Part shown: in pieces, positions 34,126 through 40,740 of the stretch
Layout of the letters: every line of letters starts with the position of its first letter
Numbering within the stretch: the first letter of the stretch is position 1
NCBI RefSeq assembly: GCF_004339765.1
Contig: NZ_SMGO01000002.1
Coordinates: forward strand, 496,001-560,000
Origin: Albibacterium bauzanense
Lineage (GTDB): Bacteria; Bacteroidota; Bacteroidia; Sphingobacteriales; Sphingobacteriaceae
DNA: 64,000 nt
Direction of reading: 5' to 3'
Translations under genes and position numbers: made by a program
The notes under the pieces: model-generated
What the model was told of the DNA's origin: nothing
What the model saw: the letters and a program-made list of their open reading frames with translations, nothing else
Database searches by the model: none

Positions 34126-35151
34126 CTATTCCTTTCCGACAAACGTATGATCACTTAAAGTTTTAATAAAAGAAATAGCATCTTGTTTTTCCTGTTCGGT
34201 TAGAGGTATCCTATTGCCGTTCTCTTTTAAAAAAGGGTCGAGATTATCGGCATATAAAACACCATTATCGAAATAATCCAAAACAGCTTTCAAAGTAGGA
34301 AACTGACCGAAACTTCCATATGGTGCAGTATACTCGACATTCCTTAGAGAAGGAACTCGAAAGCTCATATAATCTGCAGGAATTCCAGTTATTCTGGCAC
34401 GGCCGGCCTCTTCTATACTAGGGTTTATAGGAAAACCAACATTTCTGAAACTTTGGTCAGTAAACAGTTCTGTACTGTGACAACTTGCACATTTCTGTTT
34501 AAATACCTGATAACCTCGCGCTTCGCTTTCTGTAAATATCTCTCCTTCGTTTCGTTTTACTCTATCATATTTGCTATTAGCAGAGATCAGTGTATATTCA
34601 TACTGCGCAATGCTTCGATAAATTCGCTCGGAGGTTATGCTTTCATCACCAAATGCTTTTTTGAACAGGTCCTTATATTCGTGTACCGTACTAATCTTAT
34701 CAATGACTTCTAAAATGGAAGAGTTCATTTCTTCATGCGTTATAATGGGAACCAATGGTTGCTTTTCTAATTGAAGAATATTTCCGTCCCAATTATAAAA
34801 GTTCATAAATGCCATATTTTGAATGGGTGGTGTATTCCGAAGTCCGACGCGGTCATGGATTCCTATGGCTTGAATATTTTTATCGGAAAAGGCATTCGAT
34901 TGTTGGTGACAACTGGCGCAGGAAACTGTATTGTTTGCGCTGAACATCTTTTCGTGAAAAAGTTTTTCTCCTAACTCTACACCGAACTTTGTGGGCTTAT
35001 TTCCGTTTACTGAACTGTTCAATGATGGAAAACCAGTAGGTATAGTCAATGAAATTTCGGGATTTTCTTCAGGCGCAGGCTCAATGATATCCTCTTTGCT
35101 ACAGGATATCAACAGCAAGAAGATGGGTAAAATTGCAATTGCTTTTTTCAT
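34126..35151 (-). CDS. MbnH/MauG-like di-heme cytochrome c peroxidase-family lipoprotein
   Basis: 341 residues from ATG 35151 (MKKAIAILPIFLLL), with lipobox LISC (Cys 17). Two c-type heme sites, SCASCH (C78-H82) and KCASCH (C221-H225), define the bacterial di-heme peroxidase/MauG family. The usual APYxHDG after PSLRNV is APYGSFG (276-282), so the His-Asp pair common in peroxidases is absent. Being directly downstream of an MbnP-like gene suggests the MbnH role: oxidising a tryptophan of MbnP. That is inference from neighbourhood. A longer N-terminus from 35184 is unlikely because the signal peptide fits 35151. Confidence 0.85.
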   Translation of the reverse strand: MKKAIAILPIFLLLISCSKEDIIEPAPEENPEISLTIPTGFPSLNSSVNGNKPTKFGVELGEKLFHEKMFSANNTVSCASCHQQSNAFSDKNIQAIGIHDRVGLRNTPPIQNMAFMNFYNWDGNILQLEKQPLVPIITHEEMNSSILEVIDKISTVHEYKDLFKKAFGDESITSERIYRSIAQYEYTLISANSKYDRVKRNEGEIFTESEARGYQVFKQKCASCHSTELFTDQSFRNVGFPINPSIEEAGRARITGIPADYMSFRVPSLRNVEYTAPYGSFGQFPTLKAVLDYFDNGVLYADNLDPFLKENGNRIPLTEQEKQDAISFIKTLSDHTFVGKE

Positions 35152-35170
35152 TTCAATGAGTCTATATATT

Positions 35171-35210
35171 AAGAGAGCCGCCATTCTTTTAAACTTCAGG
35201 CGGCTCTTTT
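35171..35210 (-). other. GC-rich hairpin between the mbnP-like and mbnH-like genes
   Basis: GAGCCGCC (35175-35182) pairs with GGCGGCTC (35199-35206), extended by A-T and a wobble to about 12 bp, loop 16 bases. The T-run is good only in the plus direction, so on the transcribed minus strand it may act as a stabilising or partially terminating intra-operon hairpin that lowers expression of the di-heme gene. Confidence 0.55.
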
Positions 35211-35212
35211 AA

Positions 35213-36067
35213 TTAATTGTTTTCTACGTTACTGATAGAAAACATTCCTGAGGTGTCGTTTGATCCGTTTCCTCCCAAGTTATCGACAAACAGGACCATA
35301 TTAGCTGCCGTATGTACGCTAGGTGTAGCATTTCCTGATCCTAATGTAATCGTATTGGTTTTTCCACTCAACAGTTTGTCAAAATCAGCATTGATCGTGA
35401 TCTTAGGAGCATTCCTGCCAACTATAGGATGAGCAGGAAAATCCAAAATAATTTCCCGATATGCATCCACGCCTTGCGTGTAGGCGCCTTCTTCTCCCTC
35501 AATAGTACTTCCTGTATGAATGGACATTTCTTTATTATCAGTATCATAAAAGCCTTCTAATTTAGTAAAGCGGTATCCGGTTCCCCACTCCCAATGCATT
35601 TCGGTATCGTTAGCTCCGGCTTCTGCATAAAATTTAGGAAATTTTGTTTGGTCCAGTGTATTCAACTCCTGTTTAACTCCCAATCCAAATTTTATCTGTT
35701 TGTATTCACCTGCTGGAATATTACTTAACACATAGTCAAGCGTCTGCGGTTTTGATTGATTTACAACAGTTGCACCTTTATCCAGATCATTGATGTTATA
35801 AGGGATTTCATTACCGTCTGCTTTTATAAGACGAATATTACTGATCACATATTTTAATTCTGAAAAGTGATGAACTTGTCCATTAGCAGAGGTATTTACT
35901 GTGGCAGTGGAAGATGCGGCATCTCCGAGAACAATTGTTGTAGTTTTAAAAGTGTTGTTGAAATGCAAGGTAATATTGTTTGCGACAGGAGTGCTGTCGT
36001 TTTTACTACAAGAAATCAATGCCAATGGTAAGATTGATAATAATAAATAGTTTTTTATATTTTTCAT
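35213..36067 (-). CDS. MbnP-like copper-associated lipoprotein
   Basis: 284-residue lipoprotein (lipobox LISC, Cys 20). The core matches the MbnP family: HFSELKYVISNIRLI, SNIPAGEYKQIKFGLGV and the hallmark EMHWEWGTGYRFTKLEG (W159, W161). In methanotrophs, MbnP is partnered by the di-heme MbnH, which converts one MbnP tryptophan to kynurenine for copper binding. Here the MbnH-like gene follows 61 bases downstream. Copper role is inferred from family and neighbours. Long insert of Thr/Ser-rich sequence near 40-65 is ordinary. Confidence 0.82.
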   Translation of the reverse strand: MKNIKNYLLLSILPLALISCSKNDSTPVANNITLHFNNTFKTTTIVLGDAASSTATVNTSANGQVHHFSELKYVISNIRLIKADGNEIPYNINDLDKGATVVNQSKPQTLDYVLSNIPAGEYKQIKFGLGVKQELNTLDQTKFPKFYAEAGANDTEMHWEWGTGYRFTKLEGFYDTDNKEMSIHTGSTIEGEEGAYTQGVDAYREIILDFPAHPIVGRNAPKITINADFDKLLSGKTNTITLGSGNATPSVHTAANMVLFVDNLGGNGSNDTSGMFSISNVENN

Positions 36068-36117
36068 TTTTAAAATTTTATTTCATTTATGTTGGTTCAT
36101 TTATCATTTAAATTCAC

Positions 36118-36492
36118 TTAAATAAATCTGGCAATAGGAGGCGGTACAAAAATGTCTCGGTAAGGTTCCGTGTATAAGGTTTCCTTATAGATGAATCTTT
36201 TTGGCGATAATTCTGTTATCAGACATTGTGTCTCGAGCTCAATGACTGCAACAGGTAGCATATCAACCTTTTGATATATATTAATTGAGGCGGACTCGGT
36301 ATCCTCTTTTTGCTGCAATTGCTTTTTTAAATAACAGGTTCCATGACATTGCAACTCCGGCTTATCTTTGTTGATACAAAATTCTTGTTCTATGGTGTCC
36401 TGATTTAGCTTAAAGTGCATGACAATGATCGCTTGCTGAAACCCGATCAGTAAGGATAAAGCCATTAACAGAAAACTAAGAACCCTTTTCAT
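36118..36492 (-). CDS. Small exported Cys-motif protein (CINKDKPELxCxGxC), copy 2
   Basis: 124 residues. An N-terminal signal anchor or signal peptide (about 1-24) precedes CINKDKPELQCHGTC (C39, C49, C53; spacing C-x9-C-x3-C) and LKKQLQQKE; the C-terminus ends IFVPPPIARFI. It is clearly related to the protein at 39688-40056. No known domain recognised. It sits four bases after the receptor gene, so it is co-transcribed with it. The Cys/His-containing motif in a metal-uptake context suggests metal binding; inference only. Confidence 0.75.
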   Translation of the reverse strand: MKRVLSFLLMALSLLIGFQQAIIVMHFKLNQDTIEQEFCINKDKPELQCHGTCYLKKQLQQKEDTESASINIYQKVDMLPVAVIELETQCLITELSPKRFIYKETLYTEPYRDIFVPPPIARFI

Positions 36493-36496
36493 CCTA

Positions 36497-38485
36497 TTAG
36501 AAATTGACTTTCAATGAAGTGAAAATATTCCGTCCCATTCTTGGAATATTCCCCCAGTCTGCATAAGTGCTATAATATTTGTTGGTAACATTCTCCGCCC
36601 CTACCTGTAAAACGGTTTTAAAGCTTTTGAAATTGAAATTATAATCTGCTGAAATATTCCAGATCATATAAGATGGAGTTTGATCTTCACCATATTCAGG
36701 GCTATAATTTTCTTGTGTAAAATCGCCACTCACCGAAGTTTGAAAGCTAAATTTATTATACATCCAATGAAGAGATGTTTGATAATTCAAGGGGCGAATG
36801 AACGGTAAATTTCCATCCTTATCGTCTGTGCCCCGCGCATAATTGAGGGTTCCTTTCCAATGTAAATGATGCAGAATATCGTAATTCGCATTCAGAGACA
36901 TATTGAAAAGTCTGGCGTGGCTTAATGATGTATATCCTTTTACACCAACTGACTGATAATTCATCGGGCTTCCTAGACTCAAAACCCTTCCGATGATGTA
37001 ATTTTGAATATGGAAGTAGTTCACTTTGCCTTCTATACTCAATTTTTCGTTCTTAAATCCTGCACTTGCATTGGCTTCGTAAGAAATTTCATCTTTTAGA
37101 TCGGGGTTTCCAATGTAATCATAACGGTCAAAACTGTTGTAGATATAATATCCATAACCTTCTGATACAGAAGGTGCCCGTTGCCCGTATCCCGTTCCAA
37201 CAGAAAAATCAAATTGATCGATACTCAATTGATAGCTTGCGTGCAAACCAGGCAAGAGCCTGTTTTTTTCCTGTGGTGCTCCAGGGTGGAAGATCCAATT
37301 GAATTCTACATATTTGGAATGATTGTAATTCAAACCTAAGGAGCCGCCAAAATTCAATTGACTCCTGTCTGAGATTTCCCACGAATTATTCATCGAAAGT
37401 CCTGTAAAACGAGTTGTAACCCACGGCCAGCTATAGGCAAACATCGTTCTCTTGTTTCGGTCTTGCGGATACATTCGCATCTCCGCGATAGATACATTTT
37501 CATATGCATTTAGTTGAATTTCAGAAGAATAACGGTCTTTTTGAAGATTAATATTAGAAACCAGTCCGTAAGTAGTACTCCAGCCCGGCATATCCATGTG
37601 AACCAGGTTTTCGGGACGCGTAGTATCATCCATGTAGTGTTCTATTGCGTTGAAGTATAATTTGGTGTCCCAAACTCTCACTAAGCCTTCTTCAAATAGC
37701 TGTTTATAGGAAGCCGATGTAATAATTGCACGAGAAAGCCACAGGTCCATGGGAAGCGCTGGGTAGCCTACATCTTTTGCTTGGTCAAAAATGGCATCCA
37801 CCCTTACCGAAGACAAAGGACTTATCTTGTATGCCAGCGCCAGGGAGGTATTGAATTTATTGTATTGCGAATGATTAACTTCATCCTGATTTCCATCAAA
37901 GTAGTTGTCTGCTTTCCTGAAGGAAATGCTTCCATCTGCCACAATCTTGTCACCTGCATAGGATGCGTTTGCAAGATTGAAGAACTGTTTATTATTGAAT
38001 TCAAAACCGGTTTGGTAAGCACCGCTAAATTTCTTTTCAAGACCAAACGGCGTATTTTTCCTTTTCAAGTCAATGCTGCCACCAATTGTAGCGCCGTGCA
38101 GACTGCCTTCCTGGCCAGATTTTATATCGATGGTAGAAAGGTTATTGCTTTCTACATACGAGGTGATCGGATCCATTTTATCGGTACATGCTCCGAAAAT
38201 ATGCATTCCGTCTATTGTCAGAGTAGAACGTTCCGAACTCATGTTATTGAGTAACGGTTCCCATGCATAGGCGCCACGTTTAATAAAACTTATATTTTCT
38301 GAAGAGGCCAGAAACTCATCGACCGAAACGGCCATTTTCATATCAGTCTCGATTTTTCTTTTGGCAACCCCAATTATTTTTACTTCTTCCAGGCGTTTGC
38401 TGGTGTCTCTTGATGCTTCAATATCTTGTGCATTTGCGTTCATTCCAAGAAAAAGAACTAAAAGAATAACACTTAACTTCTTCAT
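36497..38485 (-). CDS. TonB-dependent receptor, OprC/NosA-like (putative copper importer)
   Basis: 662-residue outer-membrane receptor. Signal peptide ends NANA|Q; plug domain about 30-140, then the 22-strand barrel ending in the C-terminal Phe (SLKVNF). The plug contains DGMHIFGACTDKMDP with C100-x3-M104, and the barrel has EHYMDD with H283-x-M285: the CxxxM and HxM pair by which OprC of Pseudomonas binds copper. NosA-type relatives also carry the IFGAC segment. It is short for a TBDR, like OprC. Flanked by a lipoprotein five bases upstream and a small Cys protein. Confidence 0.87.
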   Translation of the reverse strand: MKKLSVILLVLFLGMNANAQDIEASRDTSKRLEEVKIIGVAKRKIETDMKMAVSVDEFLASSENISFIKRGAYAWEPLLNNMSSERSTLTIDGMHIFGACTDKMDPITSYVESNNLSTIDIKSGQEGSLHGATIGGSIDLKRKNTPFGLEKKFSGAYQTGFEFNNKQFFNLANASYAGDKIVADGSISFRKADNYFDGNQDEVNHSQYNKFNTSLALAYKISPLSSVRVDAIFDQAKDVGYPALPMDLWLSRAIITSASYKQLFEEGLVRVWDTKLYFNAIEHYMDDTTRPENLVHMDMPGWSTTYGLVSNINLQKDRYSSEIQLNAYENVSIAEMRMYPQDRNKRTMFAYSWPWVTTRFTGLSMNNSWEISDRSQLNFGGSLGLNYNHSKYVEFNWIFHPGAPQEKNRLLPGLHASYQLSIDQFDFSVGTGYGQRAPSVSEGYGYYIYNSFDRYDYIGNPDLKDEISYEANASAGFKNEKLSIEGKVNYFHIQNYIIGRVLSLGSPMNYQSVGVKGYTSLSHARLFNMSLNANYDILHHLHWKGTLNYARGTDDKDGNLPFIRPLNYQTSLHWMYNKFSFQTSVSGDFTQENYSPEYGEDQTPSYMIWNISADYNFNFKSFKTVLQVGAENVTNKYYSTYADWGNIPRMGRNIFTSLKVNF

Positions 38486-38490
38486 AAACT

Positions 38491-39417
38491 TTAGAATAAA
38501 ATATCGATATATAATTCACTTTTAACTCCTTCAACTCCCGGGGTAAAATCTCCCGGTACCTTGGTTCCTTTCAGGATTTGGCCATTTTGGTTTAGCATAA
38601 TGAAATTCAATGTCCAGTTCCCTGTCATGGTGTAATTGACGACTCCATGATAAAGGCCGTCGCTTTGCTGCACCAAATTTTTATTATTGAGAGAAGAGTG
38701 ATTCCCCATCGAGGGCTCTGGCATGCGTGGATCCAGCATTAAGGTATAACCACTGACCTCAGTATATGAGAACTGTGATGGGTCTGGAAAAGTTCCTGAT
38801 GGAGAATTGGTGGACTTGTTGAATTTGTAAATTCCGGCAACCAATTCGTTTTCTGCAATTTTCGGCTTTTGCGGAGAAACTAAAGCTATAAAGTACTGCT
38901 CGTCGTCTTTTCCTGTAAATGCTGTCATATTCAGGTTCTTGTTGGGTTGATCCTGAACAGAAATGCTTTGCTTTGCTGTATATGTTTGATTAGCAACGGT
39001 GAAACTGATGTAAAGTTCCCACTCTTCATTTACATTGCTTTCACTTGTAAATACTGAATATCCAGAAAAATAGTTATCATCAGGTTTATACAGTAAATCG
39101 TACTGATGGGGACAGGAAATATTGCTCCCATCAGCATGGGTCATAATTGGCAAAAAGGTTGCTGCAGATACATTTACTTTTTCGTTGTTCTGTGTATTTG
39201 TTATTATCAGATGGATTTCGTTGTAACCCTTATAGAAAGTTCCGTTCAATGCTTCAATACTGATTTTATAATCTTCACTATTGATCGAGGCGGCTTCCTT
39301 AAACTCATAATGTTCGGTAACTACAGTATCTATCTCTGCTTCGTAATCCGTTTTTTCTTTTGTACATGACGCAACAGCAAAGCACACTGCGGCCAGAAAA
39401 AGTATTATTTTTTTCAT
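38491..39417 (-). CDS. Lipoprotein with tandem YtkA/FixH-like Met/His-rich domains
   Basis: 308-residue lipoprotein (lipobox VASC, Cys 18). Two beta-sandwich-like segments, about 45-150 and 180-300, each with metal-ligand-like patterns: LPIMTHADGSNISCPH (M92, H94, C102, H104) and LDPRMPEPSMGNHSS (M232, M237, H240). Similar P-x-M-...-H patterns occur in YtkA/FixH-like copper-associated domains. It precedes the OprC-like receptor by five bases, so it could be a surface or periplasmic copper-binding partner. Family assignment moderate, role inferred. Confidence 0.68.
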   Translation of the reverse strand: MKKIILFLAAVCFAVASCTKEKTDYEAEIDTVVTEHYEFKEAASINSEDYKISIEALNGTFYKGYNEIHLIITNTQNNEKVNVSAATFLPIMTHADGSNISCPHQYDLLYKPDDNYFSGYSVFTSESNVNEEWELYISFTVANQTYTAKQSISVQDQPNKNLNMTAFTGKDDEQYFIALVSPQKPKIAENELVAGIYKFNKSTNSPSGTFPDPSQFSYTEVSGYTLMLDPRMPEPSMGNHSSLNNKNLVQQSDGLYHGVVNYTMTGNWTLNFIMLNQNGQILKGTKVPGDFTPGVEGVKSELYIDILF

Positions 39418-39560
39418 TGTTGATGAATGTTTTGTGAGAAATAATTTGAGTCCAGCAGTCTGTTTTCAGATTAATAGCGTCAGGTGGCAGAGACCGGCAT
39501 TGCTTCAGGATTTAAGGATGCAATATTACAGGCACCTCTCATATACTGAAATGTTGTTTT

Positions 39561-39568
39561 CAAATCTA
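39561..39568 (-). promoter_or_regulatory. -7 promoter box (TAGATTTG) upstream of the copper-locus operon
   Basis: Exact minus-strand TAnnTTTG match in the 270-base gap between the 122-residue small gene and the 308-residue lipoprotein gene. It would give a long leader (about 140 nt) for the five-gene unit that follows. The rest of the gap shows nothing recognisable. Confidence 0.45.
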
Positions 39569-39687
39569 CTCTAAAAATGAGACTGTACCGACCTAATATA
39601 GATCACTTCAGCTCTATCGTTATCAGAAACGAAAAAGACATTCAATAAAGGTCAAGTTGACGTTAAATTTTGTTCCGCTGGTTAGAG

Positions 39688-40056
39688 TTAACTAACTGGA
39701 GGCCGGAATATCGAGGTGTTATATTCGAATCGGTAATCAATTAGATAAGGTGAAAAAGACTTTTCACCGCTTTCTTCATTCGGTTGGTATATTGTTAAGG
39801 TAATGTGTTCTTTGTGGACATAGAGTGCACTATAATCATATACTACTAGATTCTTTTTTGCTTCCTTCTGCTCATTTTCCTTTATCTTTTCCATTAATAC
39901 ACACTTGCCGTTACAGTGGAGCTCAGGTTTATCTTTATTTATACATTTCGATAGATATTCGGGTAAATGTATCTGATATTCCATAAACATAATGTTGCGG
40001 TAAAACGATTGCAACATCAGAGTGATTAATAGAATATATGTACAAAAACGTCTCAA
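39688..40056 (-). CDS. Small exported Cys-motif protein (CINKDKPELxCxGxC), copy 1
   Basis: 122 residues from a TTG start (40056). The start is supported by alignment with the second copy: MRRFCTYILLITLML here, MKRVLSFLLMALSLL there. Signal peptide or anchor is followed by CINKDKPELHCNGKC (C38, C48, C52; C-x9-C-x3-C), a Lys/Glu-rich stretch, and a C-terminus ending IFRPPVS. A promoter box is 33 bases upstream. The two copies bracket the receptor-lipoprotein pair. Function unknown; metal binding is an inference. Confidence 0.72.
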   Translation of the reverse strand: MRRFCTYILLITLMLQSFYRNIMFMEYQIHLPEYLSKCINKDKPELHCNGKCVLMEKIKENEQKEAKKNLVVYDYSALYVHKEHITLTIYQPNEESGEKSFSPYLIDYRFEYNTSIFRPPVS

Positions 40057-40089
40057 GACTTATTTTAGTTTCTATTGAAATGATCTTTT

Positions 40090-40097
40090 CAAAGATA
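40090..40097 (-). promoter_or_regulatory. -7 promoter box (TATCTTTG) for the small Cys-motif gene (copy 1)
   Basis: Exact minus-strand TAnnTTTG match 33 bases before the TTG start at 40056. A second exact match (TATATTTG) lies at 40178-40185 on the same strand. Confidence 0.55.
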
Positions 40098-40263
40098 TAA
40101 AAGATTCTTCCATAAAAATGACGGGCATCATTTTATAAGAAATGTAATCTTAACTATCCTTTGCAAGATTGAAAAAACAAATATAGAAATTTGGCTTTAA
40201 AGTTTGCTAGAATCAACGTTAATCAAAATCTAAAGAAATAGTTGAGCTTCTCAAAAAAATCTG

Positions 40264-40271
40264 TAGATTTG
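40264..40271 (+). promoter_or_regulatory. -7 promoter box (TAGATTTG) for the small membrane protein
   Basis: Exact TAnnTTTG match ending 19 bases before the ATG at 40291, in the divergent region with the copper locus. Confidence 0.6.
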
Positions 40272-40290
40272 AGGTAAAGAAAAAAACGAT

Positions 40291-40740
40291 ATGGATCTAT
40301 ATTTAGCATTGAAACACCTACATTCGGGATGGCGTTTTGTAGCTTTGGTGTTACTTATTCTTGCTATAGTTGGCGCACTTTCGGGTTGGTTAAGCAAAAG
40401 CAATTACACCCCGCGCAGCAGGAAATTAAACCTGTTTACTTTAATCGCATTTCATATACAAATCTTGATAGGCCTGGCGCTTTATTTTATGAGCCCAAAG
40501 GTTCGTTTAGATGATATGGCATTGGCGATGAAAGATACGATTAGTCGTTATTGGACAGTTGAACACATCTTTATGATGATTCTTGCTGCTGTATTGATTA
40601 CGATAGGTCATTCTAAGTCTAAAAAGATCTCTGAATCATACCAAAAACATAAAACAATTGCCATTTTCTATATCCTTGCTGCAATTATTGTAATTGTTGC
40701 GATACAAATGAGCGGGATCCCGATTTGGGCGATGTCTTAA
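40291..40740 (+). CDS. Four-helix membrane protein, cytochrome b-like
   Basis: 149 residues with four predicted membrane helices (about 15-35, 48-68, 90-105, 124-143). Histidines sit near helix ends: LKHLHSGWR, FHIQIL, VEHIFMM and IGHSKS. Similar Bacteroidota proteins are often labelled cytochrome b. The His pattern would allow heme or copper binding, but this is not proven. Divergent from the copper locus; the trp leader follows 52 bases downstream. Confidence 0.7.
   Translation: MDLYLALKHLHSGWRFVALVLLILAIVGALSGWLSKSNYTPRSRKLNLFTLIAFHIQILIGLALYFMSPKVRLDDMALAMKDTISRYWTVEHIFMMILAAVLITIGHSKSKKISESYQKHKTIAIFYILAAIIVIVAIQMSGIPIWAMS

Follow-up and report, generated by a model that had tools for sequence, protein, structure and literature searches.

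Gene content and conservation of the cluster

The DNA analysed here, called the window, is a 64,000-nucleotide (nt) stretch of Albibacterium bauzanense (C2:496001-560000; source genome 3.08 Mb and 99% complete), and it holds a probable copper-uptake cluster of six minus-strand open reading frames (ORFs) at 34126-40056. In order of transcription they encode an outer small Cys protein, a YtkA-like lipoprotein, a TonB-dependent receptor, an inner small Cys protein, MbnP and an MbnH-like protein (Table 1). The intervals between them are 270, 5, 4, 50 and 61 nt, the last being 28 nt if the MbnH-like gene starts with the listed ORF (35184) and not at the Met of its lipoprotein signal (35151). An earlier sequence-only reading of this DNA had described six tightly spaced minus-strand genes (4-61 bases within the main run), and both the genes and the spacing were found as described. 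It had also carried the region to 40740, a span that takes in an unrelated divergent plus-strand gene (40291-40740); the cluster itself ends near 40056, or at about 40100 if the promoter-like element is included.

Table 1. Features of the probable copper-uptake cluster (window positions)
Feature	Position	Strand	Remarks
Bacteroidota-type -7 element	40090..40097	-	TATCTTTG; 34 nt upstream of the outer leader start; from sequence
Outer small Cys protein, proposed copper-responsive leader	39688..40056	-	TTG start; Cys motif CINKDKPELHCNGKC; tail IFRPPVS
Proposed arrest site of the outer leader (IFRPP codons)	39697..39711	-	Two codons ahead of the stop; Pro-Pro invariant in homologues
YtkA-like lipoprotein	38491..39417	-	PF13115, E 2.5e-6; likely copper site M232, M237, H240, M264
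OprC-like TonB-dependent copper receptor	36497..38485	-	Ligands C100, M104 (plug), H283, M285 (barrel)
Inner small Cys protein, proposed copper-responsive leader	36118..36492	-	Start 4 nt past the receptor stop; tail IFVPPPIARFI
Proposed arrest site of the inner leader (IFVPPP codons)	36136..36153	-	Conserved subclass E-(I/L)-(F/L)-V-P-P-P in leaders ahead of MbnP
MbnP-family copper-binding lipoprotein	35213..36067	-	PF20243, E 1e-35; W159, W161, H184 conserved
MbnH-like di-haem MauG/CCP-family lipoprotein	34126..35151	-	Two CxxCH; PF03150, 6e-49

The exact order of the six genes recurs in Sphingobacteriaceae DW12, Parapedobacter and five Winogradskyella species; among named organisms, Sphingobacteriaceae bacterium DW12 and Parapedobacter defluvii have the clusters most closely related to this one. 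This recurrence across genera and two orders of Bacteroidota bears out the conserved co-occurrence that the sequence-only reading had named as a check, and it indicates that the cluster is more than a chance arrangement. Among 34 receptor loci from other genomes of the same bacterial family, the order outer small Cys gene, YtkA-like gene, receptor gene is kept in 33, with the small Cys gene heading the operon. The mbnP-mbnH pair follows the receptor in all 22 of these loci with a receptor identity of at least 64% and in none of the 12 at or below 42%. The inner small Cys gene is present in 9 of the 22, and also in the Winogradskyella loci (L038-L042) and in L036/L037.

The receptor is OprC-like

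A sequence search of the PDB with the receptor returned OprC alone below an E value of 0.001 (best 6e-7). The receptor CTDKM aligns on CPNRM of OprC (C143/M147) and its HYM on HIM (H323/M325), so that all four published copper ligands of OprC are present and the CxxxM + HxM motif proposed for this protein stands. The corresponding residues (C100, M104, H283 and M285) are invariant in 18/18 homologues, down to 21% identity, and the same ligand pattern was found in 28 of the 34 locus receptors. With the AlphaFold model (pLDDT 82.8), ranks 1-28 of the fold matches were all OprC (E down to 9e-37, TM 0.84), followed by ZnuD, haem, siderophore and BtuB receptors. A grouping with iron or cobalamin transporters was thus not seen, as judged by fold and sequence search and not by phylogeny. 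Against the equivalog model TIGR01778 the receptor scored 80 bits (cut-off 472), and it is therefore OprC-like by sequence, predicted fold and ligands but not an OprC equivalog by that model. Assignment to the haem/hemoglobin type (TIGR01786, 98.8 bits) was rejected because OprC came first in both the fold and the sequence searches. Compared with OprC/NosA of Pseudomonas, the window receptor shares the fold, the CxxxM of the plug, the HxM of the barrel and conserved extra Met residues, but the two are only ~17% identical over the structural alignment, and the window receptor lies within a Bacteroidota lipoprotein-MbnPH operon.

The lipoprotein, MbnP and the MbnH-like protein

The YtkA-like protein had been called Met/His-rich, which its composition (8 Met and 6 His in 308 residues) does not justify, although 22/22 homologues retain its lipobox Cys along with M232, M237, H240 and M264; the Met/Met/His/Met set is likely a copper site. 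MbnP carries a WxW motif, and its AlphaFold model matched the solved MbnP structure 7l6g (E 7.5e-9), with the next fold at 0.12 and nothing else significant; W159 is found in 52/52 homologues and W161 in 50/52. The MbnH-like protein, whose gene adjoins mbnP, matched the NCBIfam model TIGR04039 ("MbnH family") at 2e-58 (197.9 bits, below the cut-off of the model; MauG 178) and, in the PDB, MbnH 6e1c at 4e-32. These matches and the domains listed in Table 1 identify the pair as MbnP and an MbnH-like protein; for the latter, NCBIfam favours MbnH, and the PDB search slightly favours classical di-haem peroxidases. At residues 304-305 of the 352-residue ORF, in the part of the protein that supplies a haem ligand in MauG-type enzymes, the MbnH-like clade of the island has Tyr-Phe or Tyr-Leu (Y304-F305 in the window protein), whereas 6e1c has Ile-Tyr and other homologues have His/Phe-Tyr.

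A lipobox is present in most members of the lipoprotein, MbnP and MbnH families. In the fetched loci, acidic residues directly follow the lipobox Cys in 20/41 MbnP and 18/35 MbnH sequences, compared to 13/61 other lipoproteins; such residues are the pattern of surface-exported lipoproteins in Bacteroidota.

The window pair resembles MbnP/MbnH of Methylosinus (7l6g, 6e1c) in the MbnP fold, the WxW motif and the di-haem partner gene alongside, but differs in that both proteins are predicted lipoproteins and fall below the NCBIfam equivalog cut-offs. The pair is known to occur outside methanobactin operons as well (PMC3621798). No MbnB-family gene (PF05114) was found in the whole 99%-complete genome, which supports the independence from methanobactin proposed earlier and led us to reject a methanobactin link; the locus links MbnP/MbnH, in the absence of methanobactin, with an importer of the OprC type.

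The small Cys proteins have the anatomy of leader peptides

The outer and inner small Cys proteins are homologues, as the sequence-only reading had noted, and contig C1 carries a third member. The family (median length 124 residues) is matched by no Pfam or NCBIfam model. We found it in 114 of 296 sampled Bacteroidota genomes; within the bacterial family of the window, 169 of 186 good genomes carry it. Most of the 138 distinct members of the main homologue set were fetched via the Cys motif; there are two further sets (31 and 43 members), and the sets overlap in part. Three cysteines (C71, C81 and C85) and two prolines are conserved in 138/138 members. The Pro-Pro lies within the last 15 residues in every one of them (shuffled proteins have it in the last 25 in 6%), at 64-75 and mostly 65-70 residues from the last Cys. 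It was likewise present in 31/31 and, at the same spacing, in 43/43 members of the other sets, one of the 43 having 17 residues past the prolines. Conservation is limited to N(x3)YI...CxN(K/R)x(K/R)PxLxCxGxCxLxK and (I/V)F(H/R/K)PP, and the spacer that separates them, with mostly less than 1 bit per column, is conserved in length but free in sequence. The N-terminus is hydrophobic in 125/138 homologues, hydrophobicity being the sole basis on which a signal was judged.

Weak start codons are frequent. For the outer protein, the TTG at 40056 is the most likely start: it is preceded, one codon upstream, by an in-frame stop, and a start at the first ATG would cost the protein its signal segment. 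At the homologous position an ATG is missing from 58/138 small Cys genes, compared to 2/52 mbnP genes. A same-strand gene, in most cases one linked to copper, lies downstream of all 138 homologues (median gap 133 nt; 270 nt after the outer and 50 nt after the inner gene of the window), and it encodes MbnP in 40 cases, a TonB receptor in 36 and a YtkA lipoprotein in 22, the others including YHS proteins, MbnH-like proteins and tandem small Cys proteins; SCO1 and PepSY_TM occur further on. In 38 of the 138 loci the small Cys gene sits directly behind an upstream gene. The Pro-Pro at a fixed distance, the sequence-free spacer, the invariable position upstream of a gene, the long gap and the frequent weak starts together indicate cis-acting leader peptides, and the small Cys proteins are probably copper-responsive arrest peptides; they are called leaders below.

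The third paralogue (contig C1, 862000-872000; 2740-6914 on the plus strand) has the tail IFHPP and heads a 768-residue TonB receptor that belongs to another type (CarboxypepD_reg-like + plug), and its locus also encodes a 452-residue BNR-repeat protein with a Met/His-rich C-terminal stretch. Seven Chryseobacterium loci (L071, L078, L082, L102, L104, L112 and L115) contain a leader, a YHS-domain protein, SCO1, an Fe/Mn superoxide dismutase, a second leader, MbnP and MbnH (gene families named from L071), a run that by its gene content is another two-leader copper operon. Three Pedobacter loci (L055, L060, L109) have two successive MbnP-MbnH pairs after one leader. Directly after the leader in 12 loci (L018, L021, L046, L048, L057, L062, L066, L075, L077, L095, L101, L107), some with MbnP nearby, there is a family of ~300 residues, possibly an outer-membrane channel, one member of which matches Phenol_MetA_deg.

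Promoter and message signals

The -7 element TAnnTTTG is found in the 200 nt ahead of 62% of outer leaders, 13% of inner leaders and 23% of all genes; as it is enriched before the outer and not the inner leaders, the latter are probably co-transcribed with the preceding gene. In the window, the -7 element of the outer leader is closely preceded by an inverted repeat, AAAATGA-tgcccg-TCATTTT (40114-40134, minus strand), to which a metal regulator could bind as its operator. The 3' ends of the leaders are C-rich and G-poor (C>G bias 0.077 compared to -0.04 in controls; thinned set of 36 representatives, p 2e-17), the bias peaking at the stop codon, and Rho is encoded in the genome.

Comparison with CruR and CutF

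The nearest precedent is CruR (DUF2946) of Bordetella, whose homologues head Proteobacteria operons with receptors, PepSY_TM, SCO and MbnPH; experiments established that its RAPP motif, its CXXC motif and Rho are all required, and in the proposed model copper frees the ribosome stalled on it (PMC9426467). Its arrest has been demonstrated in vitro (PMC12992588). The small Cys family shares with CruR the small exported-type protein at the head of such operons, an invariant Cys motif, a variable spacer of fixed length, a C-terminal Pro-Pro, the long gap and the C>G bubble, whose peak at the stop codon is like that of the rut (Rho utilization) region of cruR. It differs in having the three-Cys motif CxN(K/R)x(K/R)PxLxCxGxC instead of CXXC, (I/V)F(H/R/K)PP or FVPPP instead of RAPP, a spacing of 64-75 residues and not ~45 (about 20 more), and a second leader inside the operon. 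None of 20 small Cys members matched PF11162 (DUF2946), a domain found in 5/198 Bacteroidota genomes; this led us to reject membership in the CruR family.

In CutF, the exported nascent chain senses periplasmic copper (PMC9973294); CutF was first taken as a chaperone and later shown to be a cis-acting nascent-chain sensor (PMC9426467, PMC9973294). The broad CutF-like definition (fewer than 150 residues, a signal peptide, PP in the last 15 residues, a same-strand gene within 1000 nt; PMC9973294) is matched by the small Cys family, with the signal judged as above. The metal-type Cys motif and the downstream copper gene are further points in common. Since Bacteroidota make up 19-40% of the CutF-like list (PMC9973294), the small Cys proteins have probably been catalogued there already; the literature searched yielded no experiment on Bacteroidota members. 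CutF itself differs in activating with copper and in having a multicopper oxidase as cargo, and the small Cys loci have no excess of stem-loops.

Proposed regulation and its alternatives

We consider it likely (probability about 0.7) that the cluster is an operon for copper acquisition in which two leader peptides, one after the other, sense copper and exert control. The receptor would bring in copper that the lipoprotein and MbnP would hold or pass on, and MbnH would oxidise the MbnP tryptophan before MbnP handles copper. At low copper the ribosome on each leader would stall at (I/V)Fx-Pro-Pro, shield the C-rich end of the leader message and exclude Rho, and transcription would reach the next genes; copper on the Cys motif of the nascent chain would free the stall, upon which Rho would end transcription. 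Given the N-terminal signal segment and the distance of ~65-70 residues, the Cys motif has probably just come out on the periplasmic side by the time the ribosome arrives at the Pro-Pro. The outer leader would gate the lipoprotein and the receptor, and the inner leader mbnP-mbnH. The arrest, the copper response, the direction of control and the expression are here read from sequence and precedent. Of the scavenging system proposed in the sequence-only reading, the receptor-centred, OprC-like and MbnP/MbnH-linked part is retained, while the leader anatomy speaks against small Cys proteins that act as proteins.

A stronger form, in which serial arrest peptides gate the receptor and MbnP/MbnH separately and, by a motif and a periplasmic sensing distance unlike those of CruR, constitute a separate class of metal-responsive nascent-chain regulators that extends across Bacteroidota, is put forward tentatively, as somewhat less probable than its converse. 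The serial double leader is the most unusual feature of the system. In the literature searched, few studies deal with how Bacteroidota take up copper, and a 2025 survey found RAPP/RGPP leader ORFs upstream of copper genes missing from this phylum (PMC12992588). If our proposal is correct, the small Cys family fills this gap with a different arrest motif, provides the Bacteroidota version of a control so far demonstrated in Proteobacteria alone, offers ribosome studies a new Pro-Pro arrest context and accounts for hundreds of unannotated small Cys ORFs; copper control in Bacteroidota also becomes testable by point mutations in a short ORF.

Several observations weigh against leader-controlled copper acquisition. 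The Pro-Pro context (IFHPP, IFVPPP) differs from the proven RAPP/RGPP; the gap after the inner leader is merely 50 nt here; and the MbnH-like protein scores slightly higher against classical di-haem peroxidases in the PDB than against MbnH. Most of the C>G bias follows from the choice of amino acids, and the codon-level excess, which was strong in the full set, became weak once the set was thinned (p 0.012; 0.085 against controls), so codon-level selection for a rut site is marginal. The RNA after the leaders showed no excess structure (mean z -2.17 compared to -1.97 in control gaps, p 0.15) and no enrichment of intrinsic terminators (23/130 compared to 24/120 control gaps); control by an intrinsic terminator or a stem-loop was rejected on these counts, which leave open only a Rho-type or a translational mechanism. 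CutF works in the opposite direction (PMC9973294), which makes the sign of the control uncertain.

One alternative, which we regard as unlikely, takes the small Cys proteins for genuine copper handlers: chaperones, either in the periplasm or anchored to the membrane, that would cooperate with the receptor and MbnP and use the Pro-Pro for structure or docking. The three invariant Cys might make up a Cu(I) site together with the Asn/Pro/Gly positions, the proteins have a signal segment and the genes always lie alongside copper genes, but a Pro-Pro a few residues from the stop and a spacer fixed in length and free in sequence are hard to square with a folded chaperone, as are the position upstream of another gene in all 138 loci and the unusual start codons; the history of CutF (PMC9426467, PMC9973294) provides a precedent for such a misassignment. 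Similarly improbable is import of a copper chelate (chalkophore or xenometallophore) instead of ionic copper, with MbnH/MbnP releasing or re-oxidising the metal. It would agree with the MbnT receptors that MbnP/MbnH adjoin in methanobactin operons (PMC3621798) and with CrtA, which imports chelated copper (PMC12914433); however, all four ionic-copper ligands of OprC are present and invariant in the window receptor, whereas CrtA has no conserved Cys/Met, and the genome lacks the MbnB family. Least probable in our estimate is CutF-like control, in which copper on the exported nascent leader lengthens a pause and opens an mRNA stem-loop hiding the next start, so that copper induces a cluster serving copper handling or defence and not scavenging: the signal segment and the spacing fit periplasmic sensing as described for CutF (PMC9973294), and the inner gap is short, but structure in the intergenic RNA does not exceed that of control gaps, many of the gaps are longer than 100 nt, and the cargo is an OprC-type importer, a type repressed by copper in the OprC/NosA and CruR literature.

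Probable transfer of the island

The GC (guanine + cytosine) content of the island gave no anomaly as a sign of recent transfer (0.379 compared to 0.373). The receptor is 78-80% identical to those of DW12/Parapedobacter and, nearly equally, 76-77% to those of Winogradskyella, whereas TrpE identity drops from 72-73% with the former to 56-57% with the latter, and the sister species in the genus is without the receptor; the island has thus probably moved between orders of Bacteroidota.

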